Part shown: positions 1 to 40,372 of the stretch, one piece after another | Layout: every line of letters starts with the position of its first letter | Numbering within the stretch: position 1 is the first letter of the stretch | Assembly (NCBI GenBank): GCA_025964575.1 | Contig: JAOPYO010000311.1 | Location: 1 to 64,000 of the forward strand | Reading direction: 5' to 3' | Source: Actinomycetes bacterium | Lineage (GTDB): Bacteria > Actinomycetota > Actinomycetes > Streptosporangiales > Streptosporangiaceae | DNA: 64,000 nt | The notes under the pieces: model-generated | Told to the model about the DNA's origin: nothing | The model's input: only the letters and a program-made list of their open reading frames with translations | Database searches by the model: none | Translations under genes and position numbers: made by a program

Positions 1-1
1 C

Positions 2-1408
2 GTCATAGTCATCCTGGGCGTGCTGTTCCAGCCGTTTCTGCACGCAGAGTTCGGCAGCGTCGACGCCCGTGTCCTGCCCAAGAGCAGCCAAACGCGGCAG
101 GTGGTCGAGGAGGTCAAACGAGACTTCCCGGACGGCAACCTGGAACCGATCGACGTCGTCGTCTGGGGCGACATCATCCCCAAGCACTGGAAGCCGTCGA
201 AGAAGAGCGACAACATTCCGGCCTATCTCCGGGACTTCCGACGGCAGCTGGGTGCGTTGCCGCAGGTCAAGGAGGCCAAGTTCAGCGGCTACTCCGGAGA
301 CTACGGAGCTGTCCGGATCTCGGTCACACACAAGCTGGACCCCATGGGCAAGGACGCGCAGAGCCTGGTCAGGACGATCCGGGGATTGCGCATCCCTCCC
401 CAGCGGGGCATGACCCTGCACACCGACGTCGGCGGCAGCACGGCCGCCCAGCTGGATCTCATGTCCAGCCTGATGCGCACCCTGCCGTGGATGGCGGCCT
501 TCGTCGGGGTGATGACCTTCCTCTTGCTCTTCGCCGCATTCGGCTCGGTCGTGCTGCCGCTCAAGGCCGTCGTCATGAACATGCTCTCCATCGGGGCGTC
601 GTTCGGCGCGATCGTGTGGGGCTTCCAGGACGGCCACCTCGCCGGTCTGCTCGACTTCACCCCGACAGGCTCCGTCGAAGCCACCAGCATGGTCTTCATC
701 CTGGCCATGGTCTTCGGGCTGTCCATGGACTATGAGGTCTTCCTGCTCAGCCGGATCCGTGAGGAGTGGGACCGCACTCACGACAACCGGGTGGCCGTGG
801 CGGTCGGGATGCAGAAGACCGGCGGCATCATCACCAGCGCCGCGGTGCTGTTCCTGGTCGTCATCGCGGCGTTCTCGCTGGCCGGTCTCACCATCATGAA
901 GCTGATCGGCGTCGGTCTGTTCGTCGCCGTGCTGGTGGACGCCTCGCTGGTGCGGTCACTGCTGGTGCCCGCCACCATGCGGTTCCTGGGCGACGCCAAC
1001 TGGTGGCTACCCGGACCGCTGGCCAGGCTGCACAGCCATATGGACCTACGCGAAATCGCCGAAATCCCGGACGAATCTGCTCACAACCCCACGCCGACTC
1101 GGTCCAGGGTGCAAGACTTCGCCCTTAAAGATCCCGACACCAAGAGCCGAGGCGACCGGCTGGTCGTGGTGGCCGCAGGGGTGGGTTCGCCGGACGCCGG
1201 CTATCGCTGGGCTGAGGAACCCCGGGCTTCAGCACCGCTCGCCGCCGGGCCCCCCGCCGCCCGGCACGCATACCCCGCCCCGTCCGCGCCCACAAGGTCC
1301 TCATCCGAAAACGGGTCTAGCGCTCCCGGTCATGTACGCGAGATCATTCCCAACCCGGATGGATTCGGGTGGCACTGGAAAACAGCGGAGGAAGACAATG
1401 CCAAGTAG
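2..1408 (+). CDS. MMPL-family RND lipid exporter, C-terminal part
   Basis: This is the 3' part of an MMPL/RND transporter; the frame is open to the window edge, so the N-terminus is missing. It shows a periplasmic segment, then membrane helices with the family signature FGLSMDYEVFLLSRIREEWD (near residue 240 of the visible part), GGIITSAA and the terminal LGDANWWLP motif. MMPL proteins export lipids, glycolipids and polyketides using proton motive force. A disordered Pro/Ala/Ser-rich tail of about 120 residues follows the last helix. Its stop codon overlaps the start region of the next gene (ATG at 1398, TAG at 1406), which argues for co-transcription with the Ag85-like esterase. Family assignment is certain; the lipid carried is not known. 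Confidence 0.9.
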   Translation, partial: VIVILGVLFQPFLHAEFGSVDARVLPKSSQTRQVVEEVKRDFPDGNLEPIDVVVWGDIIPKHWKPSKKSDNIPAYLRDFRRQLGALPQVKEAKFSGYSGDYGAVRISVTHKLDPMGKDAQSLVRTIRGLRIPPQRGMTLHTDVGGSTAAQLDLMSSLMRTLPWMAAFVGVMTFLLLFAAFGSVVLPLKAVVMNMLSIGASFGAIVWGFQDGHLAGLLDFTPTGSVEATSMVFILAMVFGLSMDYEVFLLSRIREEWDRTHDNRVAVAVGMQKTGGIITSAAVLFLVVIAAFSLAGLTIMKLIGVGLFVAVLVDASLVRSLLVPATMRFLGDANWWLPGPLARLHSHMDLREIAEIPDESAHNPTPTRSRVQDFALKDPDTKSRGDRLVVVAAGVGSPDAGYRWAEEPRASAPLAAGPPAARHAYPAPSAPTRSSSENGSSAPGHVREIIPNPDGFGWHWKTAEEDNAK

Positions 1409-2414
1409 TTCACTGAAGCGGCGCGCCCAGAGGCTGGGGGTGCTCGTTTCCGCGGCGGCCCTCACCGCGGGGCTGGCTCCCTTCGGCATCGCCGAAGCCG
1501 CGGTGACCTTCAAGGCCGCTGATGACGGTGCCAAGATCACCTCGTCCAAGTGGCTGGGCAAGTATGAGTTCGACTTCACCGTCAAGTCACCGGCCCTGGG
1601 TTCGTCGCGGAAGGTGCGCGTGCTGGTGCCGAAATCCTGGGCGTTCACGTCGAAGAAGACCTGGCCGATTCTGTACGCCTTTCATGGTGGCAATGACAGC
1701 TATGTGTCGTGGACCCGTAGCACCGACATCGAGTCCTACGCCATCAAGTACAACGCGATCGTCGTCATGCCCGAGGGTGCCAACGGCTCCTACACCGACT
1801 GGTGGAACGGGGGTAAGCGCGGAACCCCGAAGTGGGAGACGTTCCACACCGTCGAGGTCAAGCAACTCATGGAGCGCAACTACCACTCGAGCACTGTCCG
1901 GGCGGCCATGGGCCTCTCGTCGGGTGGCCAAGGCGCTATGACCTATGCGGGCAGGCATCCCGGCATGTTCAAGTACGCCGCCTCCTTCAGTGGCGTTCTG
2001 TCGATGAACTCGCCTGGCATCCCGGCGTTGCTGATGTACATCAACATGAACAAGGGCTATGACCCCGCCAACATCTGGGGTGTGCCGTATGTGGACTACG
2101 CGAACTGGAACGCACACGACCCGCGGGCTCTGCTGCCTAAGATGCGTGGCACCAAGCTGTACGTCTCGTCCGGCACCACCGGCCAGCAGGGCCCGCTGGA
2201 CAAGGCGGGCCCTGCCGCTTGGTCCATCGCCTACCTGAGCGAGGGGGCGGTCGGCATGACCGACCTGGATTTCCTGGCCCGGGCCAAGGAGCTGAACATC
2301 CCGGTCGCCTCACACCTCTACGGTGACGGCTCGCACAGCTGGCCGTACTGGGCCCGCGAGATGCACAGCCAGTGGGCGACGATCATGAAGACCATCGGCG
2401 CGAAGAAGGTCTGA
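1398..2414 (+). CDS. Secreted antigen-85-like esterase/acyltransferase
   Basis: This is a 338-residue alpha/beta-hydrolase of the esterase D/antigen 85 type. The start at 1398 is chosen for GGAGGA just upstream and because it opens a Sec signal peptide (KRRAQRLG, hydrophobic core, AEAAV). The mature part carries GLSSGGQG with the probable nucleophile S174, a late His in DGSHSW (H313), and the block YTDWWNGG...PKWETF, which resembles the YSDWY...KWETF block of mycobacterial Ag85. Ag85 enzymes transfer mycoloyl groups from trehalose monomycolate at the cell surface; related actinomycete proteins can be plain esterases. It overlaps the MMPL exporter gene upstream. Secretion and fold are clear; the acyl donor and acceptor are inferred only. 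Confidence 0.85.
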   Translation: MPSSSLKRRAQRLGVLVSAAALTAGLAPFGIAEAAVTFKAADDGAKITSSKWLGKYEFDFTVKSPALGSSRKVRVLVPKSWAFTSKKTWPILYAFHGGNDSYVSWTRSTDIESYAIKYNAIVVMPEGANGSYTDWWNGGKRGTPKWETFHTVEVKQLMERNYHSSTVRAAMGLSSGGQGAMTYAGRHPGMFKYAASFSGVLSMNSPGIPALLMYINMNKGYDPANIWGVPYVDYANWNAHDPRALLPKMRGTKLYVSSGTTGQQGPLDKAGPAAWSIAYLSEGAVGMTDLDFLARAKELNIPVASHLYGDGSHSWPYWAREMHSQWATIMKTIGAKKV

Positions 2415-2479
2415 GCAACTCACCTTCCGCTCCGCGATGCCGCCGTGACCCCCGCCCAGGCCACGGCGGCGGATCCATA

Positions 2480-3736
2480 TCACCCCTTAGGGGGGCTGAG
2501 GACGTCGCAGGCGGCCGCCACACCGTCCTCGGCGGAGATGCGCTCACCGACTCGGGCGGCGGCGGACCGTACGCTCTCGGAGTGCACAGCCTGCGTGATC
2601 GCGGCGGCGAGACCACCGACGGTGAGTTCCTTGACGGGCAGGGGCTTCGGCCCGGCGCCCAGTGCGGCCACCCGCTCTCCCCAGTACGGCTGGTCCCCGA
2701 AGAACGGGCAGATGATCGTGGGCACCCCGGCCCGCAGTCCGGCCGCGGTGGTGCCCGCTCCGCCGTGGTGGACCACGGCGGCCATCCGCGGGAACAGCCA
2801 GGCGTGGGGCACGTCGCTGACGACGAGGACGTCCTCGTCCCTTGGGGCGGTCTCCGGGGCGCCGGCCAGGATGCCGCGCACACCCGCCTGCCGCAGCGCC
2901 GCCCGTACGATCGCGTCGGTCTCGGCGGGGTTCTTGGGCACCATGCTGCCGAAGCCGACATAGGCCGGTGGCGGGCCGGCGGCCAGGAAGTCCGCCAGCT
3001 CCTGCGGCGGCGCCCAGTCCGAAGCCGCGTCGACGAACCAGTAGCCGGTCGTATGGACGTACGGTGGCCAGTCCGCGGGGCGGGGAACCACGGCCTCGCT
3101 GAAGCAGCACAGCACCGGCCGCTCATCGCGGCGGACCCTGCGCATCGGGCCAAGCAGCGGCAGCTTCGCCAGGCCGAGCGAGCGCTGGCGCCACGGGTTG
3201 ATGAAGGGGCGCAGCAGCTGCCAGGCCACCTGGTCGACCAAAGAGAAGCTCAACCGGTTTCCGGTCCGTCCGAGCAGCCGACCCTGCGGCAGCAACGGAT
3301 GGGGGAACTCGCCGGTCGGCTGGCTCGGCTGGAAGTGGATCAAGACGCGGGGGATGTCCAGGTGTTCACCGACGTGTTCGCCGAAGAATCCGATCGTCGG
3401 GGTGAGCAGCAGGTCGGCACCCTGGCAGGCCGCCAGGGCCTCGGTCAGCAGTCGCTCGGCCATGGGCCCGATGATCCGCTTGAAGTTGCGGATGAACTTG
3501 ACCGGGTTGCGTCCGCCCGCCAGCCACTCCTGACCCTCGTCGGAGGTGAGGATCTCGGTGGGGTCGGCGGTCAGTGCCGTGAACTCGAGCCTCGCACCCG
3601 TCACCATGGGCTCGTAGCGGCCGCTGGCGACCAGGCGCACCTTGTCGCCCCGGGCGGCCAGTCCCTGGCCCAGCGCCACGCACGGCTGGATGTCGCCGCG
3701 TGAACCGGCCGCGATGATCACGATCAGTCGGCTCAT
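2480..3736 (-). CDS. GT1-family (UGT80-like) glycosyltransferase
   Basis: This is a 418-residue GT-B glycosyltransferase of the family 1/28 type (sterol glucosyltransferase, macrolide and lipid glycosyltransferases). The N-terminus has the acceptor-domain start IIAAGSRGDIQP. The C-terminal nucleotide-sugar site is intact: HHGGAGTTAAGLRAGVP, followed by PFFGDQPYWGERV. No signal peptide or membrane helix is present, so it acts in the cytosol on an activated sugar and a lipid or polyketide acceptor. The start ATG overlaps the stop of the MFS exporter gene by 4 bp, so the two are translationally coupled. Beside the PKS it is the best candidate to glycosylate the PKS product, which remains an inference from position. 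Confidence 0.9.
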   Translation of the reverse strand: MSRLIVIIAAGSRGDIQPCVALGQGLAARGDKVRLVASGRYEPMVTGARLEFTALTADPTEILTSDEGQEWLAGGRNPVKFIRNFKRIIGPMAERLLTEALAACQGADLLLTPTIGFFGEHVGEHLDIPRVLIHFQPSQPTGEFPHPLLPQGRLLGRTGNRLSFSLVDQVAWQLLRPFINPWRQRSLGLAKLPLLGPMRRVRRDERPVLCCFSEAVVPRPADWPPYVHTTGYWFVDAASDWAPPQELADFLAAGPPPAYVGFGSMVPKNPAETDAIVRAALRQAGVRGILAGAPETAPRDEDVLVVSDVPHAWLFPRMAAVVHHGGAGTTAAGLRAGVPTIICPFFGDQPYWGERVAALGAGPKPLPVKELTVGGLAAAITQAVHSESVRSAAARVGERISAEDGVAAACDVLSPPKG

Positions 3737-5328
3737 CGCCTGGTTCCCGAGGGGTCAGCCGGGTCGTAGGCGGGCAGGGGAGGTCGTCGCGGCGGCCAGG
3801 GCGGAGGCTGAGATCGACCGGACCTATGACCTGCTCCGACCGGTTCCTGCCAGTATGTCTCCGAGGCGATGGCGGCCGTGGCAGGAGCCGGAACGGCGAC
3901 AGGCCTCGGCCGTGTGCTCTGCTTCCGGTGCCGTGCACCCTTCTCATGGCGGGGCAGGGTCATGGCGGCGATCAGCCCGCCGATCAGCATGATCGCCGAG
4001 CCGATGGGCAGACCCACGGCGCTTCCCCGGCGGAAGGCCTCCGCGCTTGGGATGCCTGCCTTCTCCTGAGCGTGCTGGACGGAGAGGATGAAGGCGCCGA
4101 GCACCGCGATGCCGAGAGCACCGGACATCTCCCGGCCCACATTGAGGATCCCGCCGGCCACGCCGGATCGCTCGTCCGGCACCGCCTTGAGAACGTACAT
4201 CGAGAGCGGCGTGCCCATCGCCATACCGGCGGCAAGGGTCAGAATCCCGGGCATGAGGTCCACGACCTGATCGCCCTGGCGGAGGGTGCCGAACAGGAAC
4301 ATACCGACGGCCATCAGTACCATCCCGCTGCCGACCGTGACCCGCGGCCCGAATCGATTGGCCAGCCAGAACGAGACCGGGGTCAGCGCGCCGATGACGA
4401 GGGCAGGGGGCAGGAAGACCACGGCTTTCTGGGCATCGGTGAAGCCGAGAACCCTGTCCATGAACGTCACACCGAAGTAGTTCACCCCCATGAAGCCGAG
4501 CCCCATGAGCACCTGGGTCACGACGGCGCCGACGAAGACCTTGTTCTGAAAGAACGAGATGTCAAAGATCGGGTCTGGTGCCCATCGCTCGACGGTGGCC
4601 AGCGAGAGCAGCGCGACGGCGGAGAGTGCGAACACACTGATCACGGATGGGTCGCTCCAGCCGAGCCGGGGCCCTTCGGTCAGTGCGTAGGTGAGAGTGA
4701 AGAGCGTGGTGGCCGAGGTGAGCACGCCGGGCAGGTCGACACGTGGAGCGGCGTCGTCGTGGGCGCCGTTGAGCACCACCAAGGCCAATGCGATCACGAT
4801 GATCCCGGGCGCCACGTTGACGAAGAAGATGCCCTGCCAGCCCCAGATGCTTTTGATGATCGCGCCTACGGTCGGGCCGAGTGCGGTGGCGGCGGCGGAC
4901 GTGGCCACCCAGACGATCATGCCCACCGACTTCTGCTTGTCGGTGCGGCCCACGTTGATCATGACCAGCGTGGCAGGCAGGGCGATGGCCGCGCCGACGC
5001 CCTGCAACAGTCGGGCGGCGATGAGCACTCCGATGTCGCCCGCGAACCCAGCGAACAGCGAAGCGCCGGTGAAGATCGCCATACCCGCGCTGAAAACGAC
5101 GCGCTGGCCGTAGATGTCGACGAGCCGGCCGCCGGGGATCATCAGGCAGGAGAAGATCAGGATGTATCCGGTGACCACCCACTCGAGTGTCGACTCGTTG
5201 GTGTGGAGGTCGCGCTGGATCTGTTCCTTCACGATGTTGACCACCGTGTTGTCCAAGGTGATCATGAAGGCGGCGATGGCCACGATGACCAGCATGAGAC
5301 CGAATCCGTCGCGTTTCTGCCCTGTCAT
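3733..5328 (-). CDS. DHA2-family (14-TM) MFS drug/lipid exporter
   Basis: This 531-residue MFS protein belongs to the EmrB/QacA (DHA2) group. It starts with a hydrophobic helix carrying the family motif LDNTVVNI (motif D1), followed by GRLVDIYGQR (motif A) and the motif-C-like region around LGPTVG. The length fits 14 helices plus a charged cytosolic tail (HEKGARHRKQS...). Such proteins export hydrophobic compounds with proton antiport. It is the first gene of a two-gene unit with the glycosyltransferase and is divergent from the PKS. Its start codon lies inside a 14-bp tandem repeat (see the separate entry) and has no clear Shine-Dalgarno sequence. Confidence 0.93.
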   Translation of the reverse strand: MTGQKRDGFGLMLVIVAIAAFMITLDNTVVNIVKEQIQRDLHTNESTLEWVVTGYILIFSCLMIPGGRLVDIYGQRVVFSAGMAIFTGASLFAGFAGDIGVLIAARLLQGVGAAIALPATLVMINVGRTDKQKSVGMIVWVATSAAATALGPTVGAIIKSIWGWQGIFFVNVAPGIIVIALALVVLNGAHDDAAPRVDLPGVLTSATTLFTLTYALTEGPRLGWSDPSVISVFALSAVALLSLATVERWAPDPIFDISFFQNKVFVGAVVTQVLMGLGFMGVNYFGVTFMDRVLGFTDAQKAVVFLPPALVIGALTPVSFWLANRFGPRVTVGSGMVLMAVGMFLFGTLRQGDQVVDLMPGILTLAAGMAMGTPLSMYVLKAVPDERSGVAGGILNVGREMSGALGIAVLGAFILSVQHAQEKAGIPSAEAFRRGSAVGLPIGSAIMLIGGLIAAMTLPRHEKGARHRKQSTRPRPVAVPAPATAAIASETYWQEPVGAGHRSGRSQPPPWPPRRPPLPAYDPADPSGTRR

Positions 5329-5357
5329 GTCTGCTCTGTCATGGCTGCTCTGTCATG
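5316..5357 (-). repeat. Three 14-bp tandem repeats carrying mini-uORFs
   Basis: Three copies of TCTGC(C/T)CTGTCATG lie end to end (5316-5329, 5330-5343, 5344-5357; the third begins with G). On the minus strand each contains ATGACAG. Because the unit is 14 bp, each ATG is in a different frame. The two upstream ATGs open five-codon frames (MTEQP and MTEQT), and each ends in a TGA that overlaps the next ATG as ATGA. The last ATG is the exporter start. The layout is seen directly; a role in translational coupling or slippage-based variation is inferred. Confidence 0.8.
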
Positions 5358-5664
5358 GGCGTACCGGCCCCGGTGCTGCCGGGTAGCGAGAAGTTCACCG
5401 CCAACTTCACGAGAGCTTTCCTCCTTCACCCGGAGGCACAGACTAACCGGTAGCATCCAACGCAAAACCCGGCCTTCCGTGCAGCAGCGTGCCAACCAAC
5501 CCATCAGGCCACATCCGGACGTACAGCGTCTTGTCATTGCCGTGACAAGGAACTCCTGAGAAACGTGGTTCAGGTGCGCATCATGATGTGGTCAAAATAG
5601 GACAAGGTGAGTCCTCCGCTTCGAACGATCCGATCCGGGGTTCATCGTTGGGGGAACCACACTC
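5329..5664. promoter_or_regulatory. Divergent promoter region, MFS exporter / PKS
   Basis: About 330 bp separate the divergent exporter and PKS starts. Besides the tandem repeats at the exporter end, the stretch is noticeably less GC-rich than the genes around it, for example near 5580-5615. The PKS start is preceded by GGGGGAAC about ten bases before its ATG. I see no convincing promoter hexamers or strong palindromic operator. No regulator gene lies next to it, so control of this locus is unknown from this window. Confidence 0.5.
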
Positions 5665-8600
5665 ATGCAGTTGAATGATCGTTCCCGAGTTGCGCAGGAC
5701 GAGTCGCCGGCGGTGACCGGAGATTCGGTCCGGCACTACCTGATCGACCAGGTGGCGCGCCGCTCACGGATTGCCATCGACGAGGTCGATCCCGACCGCC
5801 CGCTGGAAGAGTTCGGACTGGCCTCTCGCGATGCCGTGGCGATCGCCGGCGAGCTGGAGCAGATGCTCGGGCGCTCGCTACCGGCCACCCTGGTCTGGGA
5901 GTACCCCACCATCAACCGGCTCTCGGCGGCGCTGGCGAGCGGCGAGGACGCCGCCCCGGCCGCCCCGGCAGAGGCCGCAGTCCAAGCCGCCGCCGTCAAG
6001 TCCGTGGCCGATGAGCCGATCGCCGTGGTCGGCATCGGCTGCCGATTTCCCGGGGGCGTCACCGGACCGGAGTCGTACTGGAATCTCCTCACCGCCGGCG
6101 GCGATGCCATTCGCGAGGTTCCCGAGGGCCGCTGGGACGCCTTCCACGACGGTTCGCCCGAGGTCGCGGACCTGCTTGCCAAGACCACGAAGCTCGGCGG
6201 CTTCATCGAGGACATCGCCGGGTTCGATGCCCAGTTCTTCGGCATCACCCCGCGTGAGGCGTCCGTCATGGACCCGCAGCAGCGCTTCGTACTCGAGGTG
6301 GCCTGGGAGGCCCTCGAGAACGCCGGCATCGCGCCCGCCACGCTGCGCGGCAGTCGTACGGGTGTGTTCGTCGGCGTCTCCGCCCCGGAATACGCCGCGT
6401 TCACCGCCTCCGACTTCGCCCGGCTGGAGGCCTTCACCGCAACCGGTGCGGCGCTGAGCATCATCGCCAACCGGCTGTCCTACCTGCTGGATCTGCGCGG
6501 TCCGAGCATGATCGTGGACACCGCCTGCTCGTCCTCGCTGGTCTCCACCCACCTCGCCGTGCAGGCCCTGCATAGCGGCGAGGCTGATGTGGCGCTGGCG
6601 GGCGGTGTCAACCTGCTGCTCTCCCCGACGATCACGATGACCTTCGACCAGGCCGGTGGCACCGCCTCCGACGGCCGGTGCAAGGCCTTCGACGCCTCCG
6701 CCGACGGGATGGTCCGAGCCGAGGGCTGTGGCGTCGTCGTGCTCAAACGGCTGTCGGACGCCCGCCGCGATGGCGACCGGGTGCTCGCGCTGGTCAAGGG
6801 GTCCGGAGTCAACTCGGACGGCCGCTCCAACGGCCTGGTCGCGCCCAACTCGGAGGCGCAGAAGGCGTTGCTCCGGGACGTCTACGCCAATGCGGGGATC
6901 GACACCCGCGAGGTGGACTATGTCGAGGCGCACGGCACCGGCACCTTTCTCGGCGACCCCATCGAGGCCAAGGCCATGGGCGAGGTGCTCGGCGCCGGCC
7001 GTGCCGAGGACCAGCCGCTGCTGATCGGCTCGGTCAAGTCCAACCTGGGGCACATGGAGTCCGCCGCCGGCATGGCCGGTCTGATCAAGACCGTGCTGGC
7101 CCTGTCCCACCAGACGCTCCCGGCGAGCATCCACTACCGGGAGCCCAACCCGCACATCCCCTTCGACGATCTGCGGCTCGAGGTCGTGGCGGCCGAGATG
7201 CCGTGGCCGCGCCGCGCTCATCCGGCCCGCGCAGGGGTATCCGGCTTCGGCTTCGGCGGCACCAACGCTCACGTCATCCTGGAGGGGGCCGGCCCGCAGA
7301 TGGTGGCGCCCAAACCCGTCTCGGTCCGTTCGTACCACCTCTCCGACACCACCGCCGACCGGATCGGTGATCATGCAGCCGAGCTGGTGGAGTGGCTGGA
7401 GAACAACGAGAAGGTCCCGCTGGGCGATGTCGCCCACACCCTGAACCGGCGCAACGGCCGCGGCCGGGCCCGCACGACCGTCGTCGCGCGCGACCGCGCC
7501 GGACTGCTCGACGGACTGCGCGCGCTCGCCACCGGACAGCCCCCTCCCGCGACCGTTTCGGGCAAGGCGCTGAGCGCCGCCCCGGCCCGCCCCGTCTGGG
7601 TGTTCTCCGGGTATGGCGCGCAACGCCCCGGCATGGCCCAGAAGCTGCTGGCCGAGGAGGCCGCGTTCGCCGAGGCGATCGACGACCTGGACCCGCTGTT
7701 CGTCGAGGAGGCCGGCTTCTCCCTGTGGGAGCTGCTGGAAGGCGGAGAAGCGGCGGCAGGAAACAACGGGGCGGGCGGTCCGGCTCAGACCATGCCGATG
7801 CTGTTCGGCATCCAGATCGGGCTGGCCAGGATGTGGGCGTCGTACGGCGTCACTCCCTCCGCGGTCATCGGTCACTCCATGGGGGAGGTCGCCGCCGCGG
7901 TGATCGCGGGGGCGTTGACGATCGAGGACGCAGTCAAGGTCATCACCCGCCGGTCCCGGCTGCTGACCCGGCTCGTGGGCGGTGGCGCGATGGCGGTGCT
8001 GGGCACCTCCGCCGGTGAGGTCGCCGAGCTGGCCGCCGACCTCCCCGAGGTCTATGCCGCCGTGCATTCGTCGCCCCGGCAGACCGTGATCACCGGCGAT
8101 GCCGATCAGGTCGCCGTCGTCGTGGCCCGGGCCGAGGAGCAGGGTCTGCTGGCGCGGATGGTCCAGGCGGAGGGCGCCGGGCACTCCCCGCAGGTCGACC
8201 CGCTGTTGCCGTTGCTCCGCGAGGAGCTGGCCGAGCTCCATGGATCACCGGGGACCCCGCTGGCGGAGGGCATCAAGCTCTACACCACGGCCCTGGAGGA
8301 CCCGCGCGCCCTCTTTGAGGGTGCGACGCTGGATGCCGACTACTGGGCGGCCAACCTGCGTAACCCGGTCCGTCTCACCGGCACGGTCTCCGCCGCGGCG
8401 GAGGACGGCCACCGTACGTTCGTCGAGATCAACGCCCATCCGATCCTGTCCCACGCGGTCGGTGAGACCCTCGAAGACGTCCCGGGCACCCTGGTCACCC
8501 ACACGCTCAAGCGGGGGACCAAGGGGCAGGAGACCGACGACACCCTGACCTTCCACACTCGGCTCGCCACCCTTGCCGTCCACGGCCACCTGGTGAACCC

Positions 8601-11600
8601 CCCCGCCGCAGGCAAGATCATCGATCTGCCGTCCGCGCCCTGGCGGCACGAGCGGCACTGGGTGGCCCCGCGCCCGGCCCCGCGAGCGGACGAGCACCCG
8701 CTGCTCGGGGCGCACGTGGAACTGCCGGGCGAGGACCGGCACGCCTGGCGCGCCGACGTCGGCACCGCCGCGCAGCCCTGGCTTACCGAGCGGCACGTGC
8801 ATGGCACCACCCTGCTGCCCGCCGCGGCGCTGGCCGAGATGGCACTGGCGGCCGGGGCCGAAGCCCTCGGCGACGATGCCGTCAGCGTCAATGGCCTCAG
8901 GATAGAGCGCCTGCTCCCGCTGGAGGAGCACACCACCGTCACCACCACGTTCACCGTGGCCGATCAGCGCGTGGAGATCCACGCGCTGACCCCGGCCGGC
9001 ACCTGGGAGCGGCTGGCGTCCGCCGACGTCGGTCCGGACTCCGGGCCCAAGCCGAGGGCCGAGGCCGGGCCGGCGGTTCCTGTCGAACCCGCGGTGCGGG
9101 GCAGCCGGCACTATCGGCTGCACCCCGAGGTGTTCGACCACTGCCTGACCGTGCTCTGCACGGCGGCCGCGGCCCAGCTCGGTCCCGAGGCGAGGGGTGG
9201 TGAGAACACCGTCCTGCCCGATTCGATCGGGATGCTGCGGCTGTTCGGGCCGACGCACCGTGGAGGCCAGGCCCAGGCGGAGATCGTGGAGACCGAGCAC
9301 GGCCCGGTCGGCGCGGTACGCCTGCTCGGTGCCGATGGCGAGGTCCTCGTCGAGGCCACCGGTGTGGTGCTGCGCAGAGTCGCATCCGTGGAGGTGCCCG
9401 TTCCCCTGGGGGGCAAGCTCGTCGAGGTGGCCTGGCAGCAGTCCGAGACGCCCGAAGGCGGCGAGCCGGGCGGCTGGATCGTCCTCGGCGACGGCGTACT
9501 GACGTGCCCTGACCAGGTCGCGGCCGCCGTGGACTGGGACGACACCGAGACGTCCGTGCGAGCGGTGCTCACAGGGTCCCCCCGGCATATCGTGCTCGCC
9601 CCGCCTGCCGATCTGGTGGACGAGCGACTGGTCCTCGCGGTCACCGGCGCGGCCCGCGCGTTGGCCTCGGTGCAGGCTGGGGTGTCGCCCGGCGGGAAGA
9701 TCCCGCCGAGGCTGTGGATCGCCACCCGTGGCGCGCTGGCCGTGGGTACAGGGGAGACCGGCAATCCCCGGCAGGCGTTCGTCCGGGCGCTGGTCAGGGT
9801 CCTCGGCTTCGAGCACCCGTCACTGCGCACCACCCTGATCGACCTTCCGTTGAGTGGCGGGGAGTCCCGCACGGACGACGCCGCGAAAGCGGGACTGCTC
9901 ACGGAACTGGCCGCCGACGCGGCCGACACCGAGGTCGCCTATCGCGACGGCGTGCGGTACGTCGCTCGAATCCAGGCCGCCGCACTCGGCCAGAGCAAGC
10001 CGAAGAAGATCGTGCGGCGCGGCGGGTCGTACATCATCACCGGCGGTTATGGCGGGATCGGCCTGGTCACCGCGCGGCTGCTGGCCGAGCGCGGCGCCGG
10101 GCGAATCGTGCTGTCCGGCCGGTCCGGGCCCAAGCCCGACGCCGAGAAGATCCTCGCCAAGCTGCGGGAGAGCGGCGTCGACGTCGGGGTGATCCTCGGC
10201 GACATCGCCGAGCCCGGGGTCGCCGAGCGCCTGGTCGCGGTCGCCCAGGAGGACGGCATCCGGCTGTGCGGCGTGGTGCACGGTGCGGCCGGGATGGATG
10301 ACAGGCTGATCGCCGACCTGGGCGCCGAGGATCTCCACAGGGTGTGGACGCCGAAGGTCGGTGGCGCCTGGCGTCTCCATGAGGCGACCGAAGATCTCGA
10401 GCTCGACTGGTGGCTGGTCCACTCCAGCGCCGCGGCGCTGCTCGGCTCACCCGGGCAGGGTTCGTACGCTGCGGCCAACGCGGCGCTCGACGCGCTGGTC
10501 GAATGGCGCCGGGCTCTGGGACTGCCCGCGACGACGATCAACTGGGGCACCTGGTCGCAGGTCGGCGGAGCCGCCGACCTCAGCATTGTCACCGGGGGTT
10601 CGCCCACCACAGGGGTGATCGAGCCGATCAGCCCGGCCGAAGGCCGGGAGGCACTGGAGGCGCTGCTCGCCCACGACCGGGCCGCGACCGGTGTGGTCCG
10701 CTTCGACGCGCTGACGGCACTCAGCCTGTTCCCCGAGATCACCGGCATGCCGTACTTCGCCGCGCTGGTCAGCGAGGCCGAGCTGCGGCAGGCCGCCTAC
10801 TCGAACGGCGAGGACGGTGACTGGCCGGGCCCCGAGGTGTTCAAGGAGCTGGAGCCGGCCCTGGCCCGACGCATGATCTCCGACCGGGTGCGCTGGCGGA
10901 TCGCCACCGTGCTGGGCTACGGCCCCGAGCAGTTGGACCCGGCAGTGCCGCTCACCGACCTGGGGCTCGACTCCCTGGTGGCGGTTCGGATCAAGAGCGG
11001 CGTGGAGCATGACCTGGGGCTGACCGTGCCCCCGGCGATCCTGCTGCAGGGTGCCAGCGTCGGTTCCTTCGAGGCCTGGGCGGCCGGCGAGCTCGGGCTC
11101 GGCGACGCACCGGTGCCCGGGCCCGTCGTGCCGGTCGACGACTCGTCCTACGTCATGCCCCGGGACGCCGCCGAGCGACTGGCCGTACGGATCTTCGAGG
11201 AGGTCCTCGGGCTCACCCGGATCAGCGTCGCCGCCGACTTCTTCGTCGAGCTGGGCGGCCAGGACCATCAGGCCGACGAGGTCGTCCGGCATCTCACCGC
11301 CGAGCTGGGATGTGAGCTCAACCGGTCCGAACTGTTCGTCACCCCGACCGCCGAGCACGTCGCGGAGATCATCCGTGGCGCCGAGGAGGAGGCGGCGCGC
11401 CAGACCGTACGCCCTCTGCAACAGCACGGGACGCGGCTGCCGTTCTTCTCGGCGCATCCGGCGGGCGGCACCACCGGCGTCTACCAGCAGTTGGCCTCGC
11501 TGCTCGGGACCGACCAGCCCTTCTACGGGCTGGAGCGGTTCGAGGACGCGCCCAGTGTCGAGGAGCGGTGCGCGCGGTACGTGGAGCATCTGCGGCAGGC

Positions 11601-12246
11601 GCAGCCCGAGGGCCCGTTCCGGCTCGGTGGCTGGTCCTTCGGCGGAGTGCTCGCCTACGAGACCGCCCGCCAGCTGGTGGCGGCCGGTCGCGAGGTCGAG
11701 ATGGTCGTGCTGTTCGACGCCGGGGTGCCTCGGCCGGTGGAGGACGAGGCCGACGCGCTGGCCAAGCGGTTCTCCGCCTTCGTCGGATACCTCAACACGA
11801 CCTACAACCTGGACCTTGTCCTGACCTACGACGAGCTGGCAGGCCTGTCCGAGGAGGCCCAGTTCGCGATGGTCATGGAGCGGGCGGCTCCGTTGATGGA
11901 GATCCTGCCCCCGGCGGTCCTGCACCACCAGCTCACCTCGCATCAGGACACCCGGTCCCTGGAGGCCTACCAGCCGCAGCCGTACGACGGCAGGGTGGTG
12001 CTCTACCGCGCTCCTGACCCGACTCCCTGGGGACTGGACGTCGGTGAACGCTACGCGCTCGACGAGACCAACGGTTTCGGTGAGCTCTGCTCCAATCTGG
12101 AGATCGTCTGGATCCCCCAGACGCATCACCTGAATCTGCTCGACCCGCCCGGTGTGGAGGCCATCGCCGCGCACCTGGGTGAACAGCTTGCTGGAGGCGC
12201 GCCAGTAAACGACCCATCCCGCACCCCGGAGGTTATTGATGTCTGA
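5665..12246 (+). CDS. Single-module type I PKS with Pks13-like ends (ACP-KS-AT-DH-KR-ACP-ACP*-TE)
   Basis: This is a 2193-residue polyketide synthase. Domains in order: N-terminal ACP (~20-95, FGLASRDAV as in Pks13-type loading carriers); KS (~115-545, C288, H423, H463); AT (~645-930, GHSMG with S738, substrate motif GAGH 837-840); DH fold (~1008-1250); KR (nucleotide site TGGYGGIG, S1588, Y1601, MDD so probably B-type); ACP with GLDSL (S1770); a second carrier whose Ser position is Asp (D1867 in GGQDH); and thioesterase (GGWSFGG S1991, D2018, H2155). There is no ER. In the DH the usual HxxxG His is Arg (R1043). One condensation followed by ketoreduction and TE release would give an alpha-alkyl-beta-hydroxy acyl product. 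Loading presumably needs a fatty acyl-AMP ligase, which is not in the window. It overlaps the Ccr gene. Confidence 0.95.
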
Positions 12247-13555
12247 CCTGCTCGACGCCGTACGCGCGGGCGCTGAGACCGCCGAATTGCTCGACTGCGA
12301 GCTGCCGACCCGGTTCAGGGCCGCCTTCACGCTGAAGGACGAGGTCGGCATCTTCGAAGGCGAGACCGACAAGGACGTGCGTAGGTCACTGCACGTCGGC
12401 GAGGTCGAGATGCCGGAGTTGGCTCCTGACGAGTGCGTTGTCGCGGTCATGTCGGCTGCCATCAACTTCAACACCGTCTGGTCGGCGATCTTCGAGCCGA
12501 TCCCGACCTTCGCCTTTCTGGAGAAGTTCGGGCGCCAGGGCTGGAACGGTGCGCGGCACGACCTGCCCTACCACATCCTCGGCTCCGACGGCTCGGGCGT
12601 CGTCGTGCGTACCGGCATCGGCGTGAAGCACTGGAAGGTCGGGGACAAGGTCGTCATCTCCCCGTCCTATGTCGACGAGGAGGACCACGCCTCCTACGAC
12701 GACGGCATGATGACCGAGACCCAGCTGGCCTGGGGTTTCGAGACGAACTTCGGCTCACTCGGCGAGTACTGCATCGTCAAGGCCAACCAGCTGATCAAGA
12801 AGCCGCGTCACCTGAGCTGGGAGGAGTCGGCCTCCAACACGCTGTGCGCCTCGACGGCCTACCGCATGCTGGTCGGCAGGCACGGCGCGCGGATGAAGCA
12901 GGGCGACGTCGTCCTGGTCTGGGGCGGCACCGGCGGTCTGGGCGGCTATGCCACCCAGCTGGTCAAGAACGGCGGCGGCATCCCGGTCGCGGTGGTCGGC
13001 TCCGATGAGAAGGCCGACCTCGTCCGTGCACAGGGCTGCGAGCACGTCATCAACCGCAACGACCTGGAACTGGGCGAGCAGGGATTCCGGCATCCCAAGG
13101 CGGGCCGGATCCTCGGCGAGGCCGTGCGCCGGCTGGTCGGCGAGGACCCGCAGATCGTGTTCGAGTACCTCGGCCGCGAGACCTTCGGCGCCTCGGTCTA
13201 CGTCGCCAAGCGCGGCGGCAAGATCGTGACCTGTGGTTCCAGCACCGGCTACCGGCATGAGTACGACAACCGGTTCCTGTGGATGCGGCTCAAGAGCATC
13301 ATCGGCTCGCATGGCTTCAACTACAACGAGGCCGTGGAGACCAACCGGCTGATCAGCCTGGGCATGATCCACCCGACGCTCTCGCAGGTCTTTCCGCTGG
13401 AGGGTGCCGCGGAGGCCACCCGTGTGGTGCAGACCAACCAGCACATAGGCAAGGTCGCGGTCCTGTGCGCCGCCCAGGAGGAGAACCTCGGCATCGACGA
13501 CCACGCCTTGCGCGAGCGCATCGGCGAGGACAAGATCAACCTTTACCGCCGGTAA
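12239..13555 (+). CDS. ccr: Crotonyl-CoA carboxylase/reductase
   Basis: This 438-residue medium-chain dehydrogenase/reductase makes (2S)-alkylmalonyl-CoA extender units by NADPH-dependent reductive carboxylation of enoyl-CoA. The start ATG at 12239 follows GGAGG by six bases and overlaps the PKS stop by 8 bp, so the two proteins are co-translated. Family residues for CO2 binding are present: Asn in INFNTVW, Phe-Glu in WGFETNFG, and His in IIGSHG. The nucleotide site is VWGGTGGLGGYATQ. The residue after that His is Gly, where primary-metabolism Ccr has Phe (GSHF, from memory), and the region before STAYR is also different (LCASTAYR). This suggests a dedicated secondary-metabolism paralogue, possibly with a wider acyl pocket. 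It fits the atypical AT motif of the PKS. Confidence 0.93.
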   Translation: MSDLLDAVRAGAETAELLDCELPTRFRAAFTLKDEVGIFEGETDKDVRRSLHVGEVEMPELAPDECVVAVMSAAINFNTVWSAIFEPIPTFAFLEKFGRQGWNGARHDLPYHILGSDGSGVVVRTGIGVKHWKVGDKVVISPSYVDEEDHASYDDGMMTETQLAWGFETNFGSLGEYCIVKANQLIKKPRHLSWEESASNTLCASTAYRMLVGRHGARMKQGDVVLVWGGTGGLGGYATQLVKNGGGIPVAVVGSDEKADLVRAQGCEHVINRNDLELGEQGFRHPKAGRILGEAVRRLVGEDPQIVFEYLGRETFGASVYVAKRGGKIVTCGSSTGYRHEYDNRFLWMRLKSIIGSHGFNYNEAVETNRLISLGMIHPTLSQVFPLEGAAEATRVVQTNQHIGKVAVLCAAQEENLGIDDHALRERIGEDKINLYRR

Positions 13556-15149
13556 TCGCCTCGCGTTCCTCGGCGGGCTCCTCCGGGGGCCTGCCGAGGT
13601 CGGTCACGAATCTCTGGTTGAGGGCGATCCTCAGGCGGCGGATGGGGCCGCGGGTTTCCGGGGCCTGGATGCCGTCGATCTCCGGGCGTCCCAGCGGGAT
13701 GGCAGGGGGCGGCCTCTCGTCGAGGATCGGCGCCAGCTCTTCCGGGGTGGGTGGCCGCTCGACCTCGATGTACTCCCCGTGCGGCAGCTGCTTGATGACC
13801 CCGGTCTCCACTCCGTGCTTGACCATGTGCCGTTCCCGGAGCTGCAGACCCAGGCACATCCGGTACGCCACGACGTAGGCGATCACCGGCCCCAGGAACA
13901 CGGCGAACCGGAAGAACCAGGTCGTCCAGAACAGGGGGATGTCGAAGCGGTCGGCGATCACGTCGTTGCCGCCCGCAGCCCACAGCACGCCGTAGAAGGT
14001 GACGCCCGCGGCTCCGATGGCGGTGCGCACCGGCACGTCCCTCGGCCGGTCCAGCAGATGGTGGATCTCGTGATCACCGGTGACCCAGCGTTCGAGGAAG
14101 GGATAGGCCGCCAGCCCGGTGAACAGGACCCCGGGCACCACCACGGCGGGGACGAGCACGCTCATCGGCAGTGTGTAACCCCAGAAGTTGATCTCCCAGG
14201 CGGGCATGATCCGCAGCGCGCCCTCCAGGAAGCCCATGTACCAGTCGGGCTGCGAGCCCGAACTGATCGCGGCCGGGTCGTACGGACCGAACAGCCAGAT
14301 GGGGTTGATCTGGAAGAAGGTGGCCAGCAAGGCGGTGACCCCGATGACCCAGAGGAAGAATGCGGTGGTCTTGCCGATGAAGGTCGGGAAGAACGGATAA
14401 CCCCGTACGGTCCGGTTGCTGCTGCCCTTTCCGGGGAACTGCGTGTGGGTCTGCCGCCAGGTGAGCACTACGGCGTGCAGCGGGATCAGGGCCAGCAGGA
14501 TGCCCGGGATGAGCAGGATATGGATGGTGAACAGCCGGGGGATCAGGTCCTGTCCTGGAAAGCCGCCCGAACCGAACAGGAAGAACATGAGGTAGCTGCC
14601 GACGACCGGGAGCGACAGGATCACCCCGTAGAGGATCCGCAGCCCGGTCCCGGACAGCAGGTCGTCCGGGAGTGAGTAGCCGAACAGGCCGTTGACCAGC
14701 ACCAGCATGAACAGGACGACGCCGATCAGCCAGTTGAGCTCGCGTGGCTTGCGAAAGGCCCCGGTGAAGAAGTTGCGCAGCATGTGGATGACGATCGCCG
14801 CCAGGAACAAGATGGTCGCCCAGTGATGGATCTGCCGCATCAGCAGCCCGCCCCGGACGTCCAGGCTGATGTTCAGCGTCGAGGCGTACGCCTCGCTCAT
14901 CCGCATTCCGCGCAGCGGGACGTACGACCCGTTGTAGACGACCTCGGTCATGCTCGGCCGGAAGAACAGGGTCAGGAAGACCCCGGTCAACAGGATGATG
15001 AAGAACGAGTACATGGCGATCTCGCCGAGCAGGAAGCTCCAGTGGTCAGGAAAGGCCTTCTTCATGGCCTTGCTGAGGAACTTCGCAGGACCGAATCGGT
15101 CGTCGACCGCCTTGGCCGTAGCGGTCAGTGCCTTCGAGGGATCGGCCAT
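13536..15149 (-). CDS. qcrB: Cytochrome bc1 complex cytochrome b subunit, stand-alone paralogue
   Basis: This 537-residue protein matches actinobacterial QcrB closely. It has THWSFLLGEIA-like opening residues (DHWSFLLGEIA), the haem-ligating pairs in RQIHHWATILFLAAIVIHMLRN and FTIHILLIPGILLALIPLH, the Qo-site motif PDWY, and the tail HGVETGVIKQLPHGEYIE. The start ATG at 15149 is chosen because GGAGG sits five bases upstream. QcrB carries electrons from menaquinol in the bc1-aa3 supercomplex. Normally it lies in a ctaE-qcrCAB operon, but no qcrC or qcrA is nearby, so this is probably a second copy. Its 3' end overlaps the convergent ccr gene by 20 bp. Confidence 0.93.
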   Translation of the reverse strand: MADPSKALTATAKAVDDRFGPAKFLSKAMKKAFPDHWSFLLGEIAMYSFFIILLTGVFLTLFFRPSMTEVVYNGSYVPLRGMRMSEAYASTLNISLDVRGGLLMRQIHHWATILFLAAIVIHMLRNFFTGAFRKPRELNWLIGVVLFMLVLVNGLFGYSLPDDLLSGTGLRILYGVILSLPVVGSYLMFFLFGSGGFPGQDLIPRLFTIHILLIPGILLALIPLHAVVLTWRQTHTQFPGKGSSNRTVRGYPFFPTFIGKTTAFFLWVIGVTALLATFFQINPIWLFGPYDPAAISSGSQPDWYMGFLEGALRIMPAWEINFWGYTLPMSVLVPAVVVPGVLFTGLAAYPFLERWVTGDHEIHHLLDRPRDVPVRTAIGAAGVTFYGVLWAAGGNDVIADRFDIPLFWTTWFFRFAVFLGPVIAYVVAYRMCLGLQLRERHMVKHGVETGVIKQLPHGEYIEVERPPTPEELAPILDERPPPAIPLGRPEIDGIQAPETRGPIRRLRIALNQRFVTDLGRPPEEPAEEREAITGGKG

Positions 15150-15375
15150 GCGGACCTCCAGGTCACCCATACCACTGTCGGCCCTACCCAGGAAGACGGG
15201 CTGGATATCCCAATCTGTACATTTTCTACGGCCGAACCTGGCCTTAGGTCGATCTACACTGGCGCGCGGCCCATGGACCAAGTCATGATTTCCCCCACAG
15301 TTGTTGCGCAAGTAACCACACATCGCCTCCGCACTGTGCGTTACTGGAGAGTAATGATCGGCTGGAGGTATGTGT

Positions 15376-16656
15376 GTGACAGACGACTCGAATGCATCCG
15401 CTCTGTCTCGCCCACCCTGGGCCGACATCCCCCAGGAACTGGCCGAGATGATCAGGCCCCACCTCGACGAGGTGGCGGACGACATGATCCAGGAGATCCA
15501 GGCGCGGGTCCGGGAGTACTCCCGGCCTGGTGACGGACCGTATTCGGCCACTCTGCGGCTGGCCGTCGAGCGCGTCCTGCAGTACTTCGTGGACCGAATC
15601 GGCTCGCCCGACACACCGGCCGAGGCCGTCACCGACTTCTTCCGCGCGATCGGCCGTGGTGAGGCGGGGGAGGGGCGCGGCCTCGACGCGATGCAGGCCG
15701 CCACTCGGGTCGGTGGTCTGATCGCCTGGCGGTGGATCTCCGAAGGGGCCGTCAAGCTGGACATCGTCTCCAGCGTCGTGGCGACCCTCGGCGAGGCCAT
15801 GCTCATGTTCCAGGACGAACTGGCTGCGGCGGCCGCGGAGGGCTACGCCCAGGCCAGGTCCGCCGCCGTCGGTGAAATGCAGCGTCGTCGTCGGCGCCTG
15901 CTCGACCTGCTGCTCAGCACCCCGCCCTCCAGTATGGACGCGATCGCCGACCTGGCCGCCGCCGCGCACTGGCCGCTGCCCCGTACGGTGGCAGCCGTCG
16001 CGCTGGGCGGTAACCACCAGGACGCTCGGCTGCCCGCGCTGCCCCCCGACATCCTCGCCGATCTCACCCGGCGCCAGCCGTCACTGATCATTCCGGACCC
16101 GGACGGGCCCGGCCGGGCCAAGCTGATCGATCGGGCGCTGGGCGACTGTGTCGCCGCTGTCGGGCCGACGATGCCCCTCAACGAGGCGGGCCGCTCGATG
16201 CAGTGGGCCCGCCAGACGCTCGCCCTCAGCCAGCGGGGGATCATCAAAGACACCGGCGTGGTGCGTTGTGTCGAGCACATCTCGACATTGATCGTCTTTC
16301 AGGACGAGGATCTGCTGGAGTCCCTTGCCGGGCTGCGGTTGGCGCCGCTGGCCCATCTGCGTCCCAGCCAGCAGGACCGGCTGGCCGAGACGTTGCTGGC
16401 CTGGCTGCAGTCCGGGCGCAACGCCAACGAGGTGGCCATGCGACTGCACGTCCACCCGCAGACCGTGCGCTACCGGTTGCGCCAGCTCGAGGACCTGTTC
16501 GGGGACCAACTGCTGGATCCCGACCTGCGGTTCGATCTGGAGATCGTGCTGCGCGCCCGGCGTCTGCTCATGGTTCAGGGCGAGAGCCTCGCCGTGGAGG
16601 TCACCGGCCCCAACAAGGCGGTGGCCGCCGGCGAGGTCATCGCCCTCCGCCCCTAA
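15376..16656 (+). CDS. PucR/CdaR-type transcriptional regulator
   Basis: This is a cytosolic regulator of about 426 residues. The N-terminal ~170 residues are helical without a recognised ligand motif. The C-terminus carries the PucR-type helix-turn-helix NANEVAMRLHVHPQTVRYRLRQLEDLFG. GTG at 15376 is preferred because GGAGG ends seven bases before it; the ATG two codons earlier is only one base from that site. PucR-type proteins in actinomycetes regulate fatty-acid, purine or secondary metabolism. It is divergent from the qcrB paralogue, and control of that gene is a reasonable guess without direct support. Confidence 0.85.
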   Translation: MTDDSNASALSRPPWADIPQELAEMIRPHLDEVADDMIQEIQARVREYSRPGDGPYSATLRLAVERVLQYFVDRIGSPDTPAEAVTDFFRAIGRGEAGEGRGLDAMQAATRVGGLIAWRWISEGAVKLDIVSSVVATLGEAMLMFQDELAAAAAEGYAQARSAAVGEMQRRRRRLLDLLLSTPPSSMDAIADLAAAAHWPLPRTVAAVALGGNHQDARLPALPPDILADLTRRQPSLIIPDPDGPGRAKLIDRALGDCVAAVGPTMPLNEAGRSMQWARQTLALSQRGIIKDTGVVRCVEHISTLIVFQDEDLLESLAGLRLAPLAHLRPSQQDRLAETLLAWLQSGRNANEVAMRLHVHPQTVRYRLRQLEDLFGDQLLDPDLRFDLEIVLRARRLLMVQGESLAVEVTGPNKAVAAGEVIALRP

Positions 16657-40154: not shown

Positions 40155-40372
40155 CGTCGTGTCCTTCCTCCGAGCTTCTGTGCTGACAAGCTCGAGCCTG
40201 ATGCGCGGCGGCCTCCTGAACACGGGTCCCAGAACCCTCACGGAGGTAGGGATAACTCCCCCCAGAAGGGACCTGGCACCACTGAGGTCGGGCGATGGAG
40301 CCGACCACAATGGGCACGGAGGGCGTACTCCCTCGTCCGTGGTAAGTCGTGTAGGTGATGAGGAGAACCGCA

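Follow-up and report, generated by a model that had tools for sequence, protein, structure and literature searches.

Gene content of the locus

A group of six genes occupies the first 13,555 nucleotides of a 64,000-nucleotide stretch of DNA (the window) from a Streptosporangiaceae bacterium (assembly GCA_025964575.1, contig JAOPYO010000311.1). A preliminary description of this DNA had listed an MMPL exporter, an Ag85-like esterase, a GT1 glycosyltransferase, an MFS exporter, a polyketide synthase (PKS) similar to Pks13, and an enoyl-CoA carboxylase/reductase (Ccr). Open reading frame and profile searches recovered all six, at the same positions and in the same families (Table 1). The first base of the window is also base 1 of its contig (C141), in a genome of 8.18 Mb that is spread over 497 contigs. 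Because the contig starts inside the MMPL gene, this gene is incomplete, and only the C-terminal 468 residues are encoded.

Table 1. Positions of the genes and PKS domains of the locus, and of an adjacent regulator gene, in the window
Feature	Position	Strand	Evidence or remark
MMPL (RND) exporter, MmpL3-like, C-terminal half only	2–1408	+	Pfam MMPL 4.8e-35; best NCBIfam model MmpL3, 222.6 bits
Secreted Ag85/PS1-type acyl(mycolyl)transferase homologue	1398–2414	+	PDB matches, triad alignment; start probable, with GGAGGA ribosome-binding site
GT1 glycosyltransferase	2480–3736	-	Closest solved relative sterol 3-beta-glucosyltransferase
DHA2-family MFS exporter	3733–5328	-	Pfam MFS_1 1.7e-46; TIGR00711-like, 207 bits
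Pks13-related PKS, 2193 aa	5665–12246	+	N-ACP, KS, AT, inactive DH, KR, ACP, degenerate ACP, TE
N-terminal ACP (GLAS) of PKS	5722–5946	+	Predicted landing site of acyl chain activated by a fatty acyl-AMP ligase
Decayed DH domain of PKS	8689–9411	+	Motif loss across family
Intact KR domain of PKS	9997–10581	+	S, Y, N present
Pks13-type thioesterase/acyltransferase domain of PKS	11422–12189	+	GGWSFGG, HQxTSxxDxR, His; best PDB match Pks13 TE
CinF-type Ccr	12236/12239–13555	+	TIGR01751 502.7 bits, cut-off 378.6
PucR-type regulator, candidate locus regulator	15448–16656	+	PF13556 5.5e-20; recurs beside most such loci

Architecture of the polyketide synthase

Related loci were found in many other actinomycete genomes, and motif counts were taken over 47–49 PKS proteins from these clusters. 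The domain order N-ACP-KS-AT-DH-KR-ACP-TE recurs in most of them. The DH remnant is unrecognisable in several Nonomuraea proteins, and DH and KR are both missing only in genome G057 and Streptomyces NBC_00620, whose PKSs have the bare Pks13 layout. The serine of the N-terminal acyl carrier protein (ACP), the Cys/His/His of the KS and the AT serine are essentially invariant, and the AT histidine, the serine of the C-terminal ACP and the TE catalytic residues of Pks13 type are present. The AT signature GAGH was found in all 33 proteins from loci with a Ccr. In the window, the phosphopantetheine serine is missing from a second C-terminal ACP, where the sequence is LGGQDH.

Two further features were informative about the product. 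The KR residues Ser, Tyr and Asn are kept in 47 of 47 proteins. The DH has decayed: the histidine of HxxxGxxxxP is replaced or shifted, and most members have lost the second motif or carry it in changed form. The residue state thus bears out, across the family, the earlier claim of a non-functional DH beside an active KR, and the PKS is predicted to perform one condensation and one ketoreduction, with no dehydration. With the KR intact and the DH decayed, an alpha-alkyl-beta-hydroxy acid is predicted, as originally proposed. For release of the chain, the GGWSFGG motif, the HQxTSxxDxR stretch (common to Pks13) and the histidine of the TE are all kept across the family. The closest solved relatives of the TE are those of Pks13 (3.1e-43), and the next family in the PDB that is not Pks13 follows at 5.2e-20.

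Predicted extender unit supply by Ccr

The Ccr is the sole protein in its own genome above the TIGR01751 cut-off. It matched CinF (4a0s) with 553 bits, against 479 for crotonyl-type enzymes; CinF is the octenoyl-CoA carboxylase/reductase of the cinnabaramide pathway (PMC5719088). At the positions of CinF Ala163 and Gly362, all 37 cluster Ccrs carry Ala and Gly, where crotonyl enzymes have Ile and Phe. These positions are said to govern pocket size, in work by Quade et al. from 2012. The CinF-like pocket would therefore be expected to yield a medium-chain branch, probably in the hexyl range rather than ethyl. The short ethyl branch proposed earlier was accordingly dropped, since both the sequence and the pocket are CinF-like and not crotonyl-like. 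The Asn, Phe-Glu and His of the CO2 site, which we take to be the CO2-binding residues, are kept in nearly all of the 37.

Gene order and distribution in related genomes

The closest named carriers of the locus are a Streptosporangiaceae metagenome-assembled genome, another from an actinomycete, and species of Actinomadura, Actinocorallia and Actinoallomurus. More distant carriers belong to Planomonospora, Planobispora, Nonomuraea, Actinoplanes, Amycolatopsis and Saccharopolyspora, and further ones to Actinopolyspora, Actinokineospora, Actinophytocola, the Frankiaceae and Streptomyces. In gene-order strings, EST denotes the Ag85-like esterase gene, and G000 is the genome of the window.

In genomes G001 and G017, the order is FAAL-MMPL-EST-(GT-MFS, opposite strand)-PKS-Ccr, FAAL being a fatty acyl-AMP ligase. 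Genome G002 carries FAAL-MMPL-EST, a protein of about 600 aa with a methyltransferase domain, GT-MFS and the PKS; Ccr is not visible here because the 20-kb contig stops just after the PKS. Genome G007 has FAAL-MMPL+EST-MFS-PKS-Ccr, without GT. An FAAL near the locus had been anticipated, and in 14 of 14 additional Streptosporangiales loci it lies directly before MMPL (seen by gene calling in 12 and by tblastn in the other 2), with FadD32 as best match. The expected neighbourhood of MMPL and EST with the PKS was likewise observed in G001, G002, G017, Planomonospora, Nonomuraea, Thermoactinospora and Actinocorallia. This linkage holds in many genera but not in all: in three Actinoallomurus species and Actinomadura craniellae, the FAAL-MMPL-EST trio is separate from GT-MFS-PKS-Ccr.

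Several neighbouring genes were also noted. A PucR-type protein recurs next to most loci across many genomes, and is probably the regulator of the locus. Abutting the Ccr gene is one for a QcrB-type cytochrome bc1 b-subunit (13536–15806, minus strand; NF050120, 716.7 bits, over the cut-off), found at the same place in G001 and Actinomadura craniellae (L062). A second MMPL gene lies within the window at 37953–40223 (minus strand), and its MmpL3 score of 215 bits is weaker than that of the locus type. Preceding FAAL in G001 is a 413-aa protein with no Pfam match. A conserved, apparently secreted protein of about 430 aa adjoins GT1 in loci of Nonomuraea, Thermoactinospora and Planomonospora (L179:12432–13730, L176:5762–7066, L182:13665–14945); it is absent from the window and gave no Pfam match. 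Neither protein was counted as part of the locus.

Sister loci with AccD

In Pseudonocardiales, Frankiaceae, Streptomyces NBC_00620 and G057, the PKS core usually occurs with an AccD carboxylase, and Ccr is replaced. These loci are ordered FAAL-PKS-AccD-EST, FAAL-PKS-AccD or AccD-FAAL-PKS-EST. Neither Ccr nor AccD was found in the stretch read for the Pseudofrankia locus L091, or for L100, L105 and L109. These data show that Ccr and AccD are two interchangeable extender modules around one condensing core. The idea that Ccr takes the place of the acyl-CoA carboxylase is thus correct for the lineage of the window, though Ccr is only one of two such modules.

Three Corynebacteriales genomes, read alike, gave EST-EST-x-cutinase-FAAL-PKS-AccD, an order that matches the published Rv3799c–Rv3804c cluster (PMC2625445). 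The AccD of one sister locus (L090) is about 60–67% identical to housekeeping proteins of AccD5/PccB type, compared with 51–54% to the AccD4 that adjoins Pks13. Gene order alone is therefore not evidence of orthology to AccD4, and we dropped that assignment. From the likeness to AccD5/PccB, the sister loci may use methylmalonyl-CoA.

Two peculiarities of these loci were recorded. The loci of Streptomyces NBC_00620 and G057 (L094, L228) read AccD-FAAL-PKS(no DH-KR)-EST-PucR, with the exact domain layout of Pks13. In several Pseudonocardiales loci, a protein of about 500 aa follows FAAL (L105:13678–15258; L100:13630 onward); the L105 protein, the only one scanned, matches Pfam PMT_2, a GT-C mannosyltransferase-like family.

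Common ancestry with Pks13 and FadD32

Phylogenetic analysis placed the cluster PKSs and Pks13 in one clade, with support of 100/100 in the KS-AT tree and 99 in the tree of KS alone. The outgroup consisted of the nearest other PKSs found, and the trees did not include MAS. Within the KS-AT tree, loci of AccD type formed a clade (97/98) and most loci of Ccr type another (95/97). A hint from KS alone that Pks13 is nested with the AccD type was not retained, as approximately unbiased (AU) tests on KS-AT do not decide between the cluster PKSs alone as a clade (p = 0.53) and Pks13 with the AccD type (p = 0.33).

The FAALs gave a parallel result. Cluster FAALs of the relatives, whose closest PDB match is FadD32, grouped with FadD32 at 100 SH-aLRT, apart from the other FAALs of the same genomes. 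PKS (KS) and FAAL distances co-varied over 29 loci (r = 0.82), with no value as high in 5000 permutations. Taken with the FadD32 clade, this co-variation indicates that FAAL and PKS have largely travelled as a pair. The cluster PKS therefore shares common ancestry with Pks13, and the cluster FAAL with FadD32.

Candidate genes for head group, export and acyl transfer

The Ag85-like esterase matched best the mycolyltransferase PS1 of C. glutamicum (6sx4, 1.1e-44), then Ag85B (5.8e-21) and Cmt1. The Ag85 triad could be aligned as the Ser of GLSSGG, a Glu, and the His of HSWPYW, so that the HSWxYW motif is present; over 53 locus esterase homologues, the Ser motif and a GxHxW motif are conserved. 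A secretion signal was read by eye at the N-terminus. The arabinosyltransferase PF04602 was absent from the genome of the window and from its family relatives; the same search did find it in C. glutamicum, the control, and in a mycobacterial-type genome. As arabinogalactan genes are absent, the acceptor of the Ag85-like enzyme would be something else.

For export, the full-length MMPL orthologue in G001 has MmpL3 as its best PDB match, with 374 bits versus 102 for MmpL5. The similarity of GT1 to sterol glucosyltransferases would agree with a role in glucosylating a hydroxyl group of some hydrophobic acceptor.

A predicted pathway to a secreted glycolipid

Together, we consider it likely that the locus encodes a pathway of the mycolate-condensation type, in a bacterium outside the Corynebacteriales. 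The product is probably a secreted branched glycolipid. The earlier proposal of a mycolate-like pathway is supported, with the corrections given above: two conditions that would have spoken against it, a lack of MMPL and Ag85-like genes next to the PKS in relatives and a lack of any nearby FAAL, were not borne out. Gene content and order, conservation, residue state and the ancestry of PKS and FAAL can be read directly from the sequences; from these we infer every reaction, as well as the chain lengths, sugar, acceptor and biological role. A FadD32-like FAAL, beyond the contig end and seen in relatives, would adenylate a fatty acid and transfer it to the PKS at its N-terminal ACP. The CinF-type Ccr would reductively carboxylate a medium-chain 2-enoyl-CoA to alkylmalonyl-CoA, which the AT would place on the C-terminal ACP, and the KS would then perform a single Claisen condensation. 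The beta-keto group would be reduced in cis by the KR, and with an inactive DH and no ER, the chain would stop as alpha-alkyl-beta-hydroxyacyl. In mycobacteria, this reduction is the task of a separate enzyme, CmrA. The Pks13-type TE would release the chain, perhaps onto a sugar, and GT1 would glucosylate a lipid hydroxyl, possibly the beta-OH. The glycolipid would be exported by MMPL and/or MFS, and the secreted Ag85/PS1-type enzyme would transesterify the acyl group onto a sugar hydroxyl, a second lipid or a protein, and not onto arabinogalactan.

A number of observations weigh against this pathway. The PKS scored 1307.7 bits over its whole length with the curated Pks13 model NF040607, below the cut-off of 2100, and none of the NCBIfam cut-offs for Pks13, FadD32 and MmpL3 was reached; the G001 MMPL, for example, scored 460 bits where NF052608 has a cut-off of 1400. 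Neither an FAAL gene nor the N-terminal half of MMPL was found elsewhere in the genome assembly, so that the window borders on a gap in the assembly. The same genome encodes a second Ag85-like esterase, 57% identical (L052, G000:C387, 344–1369), whose 10-kb contig carries no PKS. It also encodes an unlinked MMPL (L053, G000:C127, 4421–6583), which at 457 bits with the MmpL3 model equals the locus orthologue. The locus MMPL was thus not retained as the specific orthologue of MmpL3, and its substrate is not readable from the match; of its earlier description as an MmpL3 counterpart, it remains that MmpL3 is the closest solved exporter, a likeness not exclusive to the locus. GT1 is restricted to loci of Ccr type. 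Finally, co-linear full orthologues of the PKS occur in only 6 of 36 genomes of the same family (G001, G002, G007, G016, G017 and G026), and such patchiness makes an essential envelope role unlikely. Beside the unlinked MMPL at L053, proteins of about 400 aa and of unknown family follow.

Alternative explanations

A more specific form of the pathway would yield a macrodiolide biosurfactant like glucolypsin or cycloviracin, a specialised metabolite. In this scheme, GT1 would act on the beta-OH of the PKS acid, and the TE or the Ag85-like enzyme would form cross-esters between the carboxyls and glucose O-6, so that a dimer is secreted. In glucolypsin, ester bonds at glucose C6 connect a pair of glucoses to acyl chains that bear a C2-methyl and a C3-hydroxy group (PMC4365757). 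A KR stop, a GT1 closest to sterol 3-beta-glucosyltransferases and O-6 acyl transfer of Ag85 type would produce a structure of this kind, and the patchy distribution and the DHA2 MFS exporter suit a specialised metabolite. Of known chemistry, this is the best fit to a KR stop, GT1 and an O-6 acyltransferase, though it is only a lead. The known producers belong to other genera, however, and no gene cluster for such compounds was found in the literature searched. The CinF-type Ccr moreover predicts a branch longer than methyl, and the AccD-type loci, which would suit methyl better, lack GT1. We regard this specific outcome as rather unlikely.

Alternatively, the Ag85-like enzyme could acylate a sugar or protein of the cell surface, to form a covalent layer analogous to the mycomembrane. 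The presence of both an Ag85/PS1-type enzyme and an MmpL3-like exporter would agree with this, and many carriers are actinomycetes that form spores or sporangia. With no EmbABC-type arabinosyltransferase found in the family, a patchy presence and, to our knowledge, no outer layer of this kind reported for the carrier genera, an envelope lipid seems improbable.

It could also be that three groups without functional relation to each other, MMPL/esterase, GT/MFS and PKS/Ccr, lie together by chance, as the unlinked trio in Actinoallomurus and Actinomadura craniellae and the MMPL and EST paralogues elsewhere in the genome might suggest. The same groups are nevertheless adjacent in many genera despite rearranged internal order, the unlinked trio still has a co-evolving FAAL, and the independent AccD-type loci too contain an Ag85-like gene. 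The arrangement recurs across tens of genomes, with co-varying PKS and FAAL distances, far beyond chance, and an accidental neighbourhood is very improbable. A beta-lactone like lipstatin, which carries an alpha-hexyl group and could arise by cyclisation of an alpha-hexyl-beta-hydroxy acid to an esterase inhibitor, is barely credible: the CinF-type Ccr does imply a hexyl-range branch, but no beta-lactone synthetase or nonribosomal peptide synthetase was found in the loci read, the TE is of Pks13 type, and this reading leaves GT1, MMPL and the Ag85-like enzyme without explanation.

Possible implications for the origin of mycolates

We know of no mycolic acids in the carrier genera by standard chemotaxonomy. 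In a 2018 survey, mycolic acids were exclusive to Corynebacteriales and Ag85 genes occurred only in mycolate-positive species, and the origin of the mycomembrane was called a mystery (PMC6194230). No description of loci like the present one was found in the literature searched, which did not cover most subscription journals. The finding, as judged from sequence, is an acyl-condensation and transfer locus related to Pks13 and FadD32 in actinomycetes beyond the Corynebacteriales, in which Ccr and AccD can replace each other as the extender module.

The locus possibly bears on the origin of mycolates. Loci of the form FAAL-PKS(-AccD/Ccr)-EST-exporter, for secreted glycolipids with alpha-branched beta-hydroxy chains, may already have been widespread in actinobacteria before the mycomembrane arose. 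Corynebacteriales would have recruited one, with the PKS becoming Pks13 by loss of DH and KR, and the glycolipid transferase becoming the Ag85 complex; the locus in the window would then be a living sister of the ancestral pathway. This scenario is tentative, and we place it somewhat short of an even chance. The set is common to dozens of species with no known mycolic acids, so that the source of the mycolate machinery becomes open to testing. Pks13, FadD32 and Ag85 are all of central importance in drug work on tuberculosis; the loci supply an outgroup for them, and offer non-pathogenic relatives of these drug targets for enzymology. They also predict that cultivable strains secrete branched glycolipids of a common class.

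Comparison with known systems

In the PDB search, the top total score for the PKS went to synthases of the mycocerosic acid type (MAS, Pks2). The MAS match runs from the KS onward only, without the N-ACP and TE that Pks13 matches. CinF, the closest solved relative of the Ccr, has the same pocket Ala/Gly and CO2-site residues; here, the enzyme is partnered with a Pks13-type PKS. Glucolypsin, fattiviracin and cycloviracin could be compared by chemistry only, as their biosynthetic genes were not found in the literature searched. They have the same predicted acyl chemotype (glucolypsin is C2-branched, C3-hydroxy and glucosylated; PMC4365757), with a branch that is methyl or absent.

Relative to the Corynebacteriales locus accD4-pks13-fadD32-Rv3802c-fbpD-fbpA (mmpL3 elsewhere), the present one has Ccr instead of AccD4, and linked MMPL, GT1 and MFS, in hosts without arabinogalactan genes. 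Pks13 has no KR or DH in cis, reduction being left to CmrA, whereas here an intact KR stands in cis beside a DH remnant. No Rv3802c-like cutinase was recognised in the loci read. The two systems nonetheless have in common the FAAL, a PKS with an N-terminal ACP and a Pks13-type TE, and transferases of the Ag85 family, and the order FAAL-PKS-AccD of Corynebacteriales is common to many of the AccD-type sister loci.

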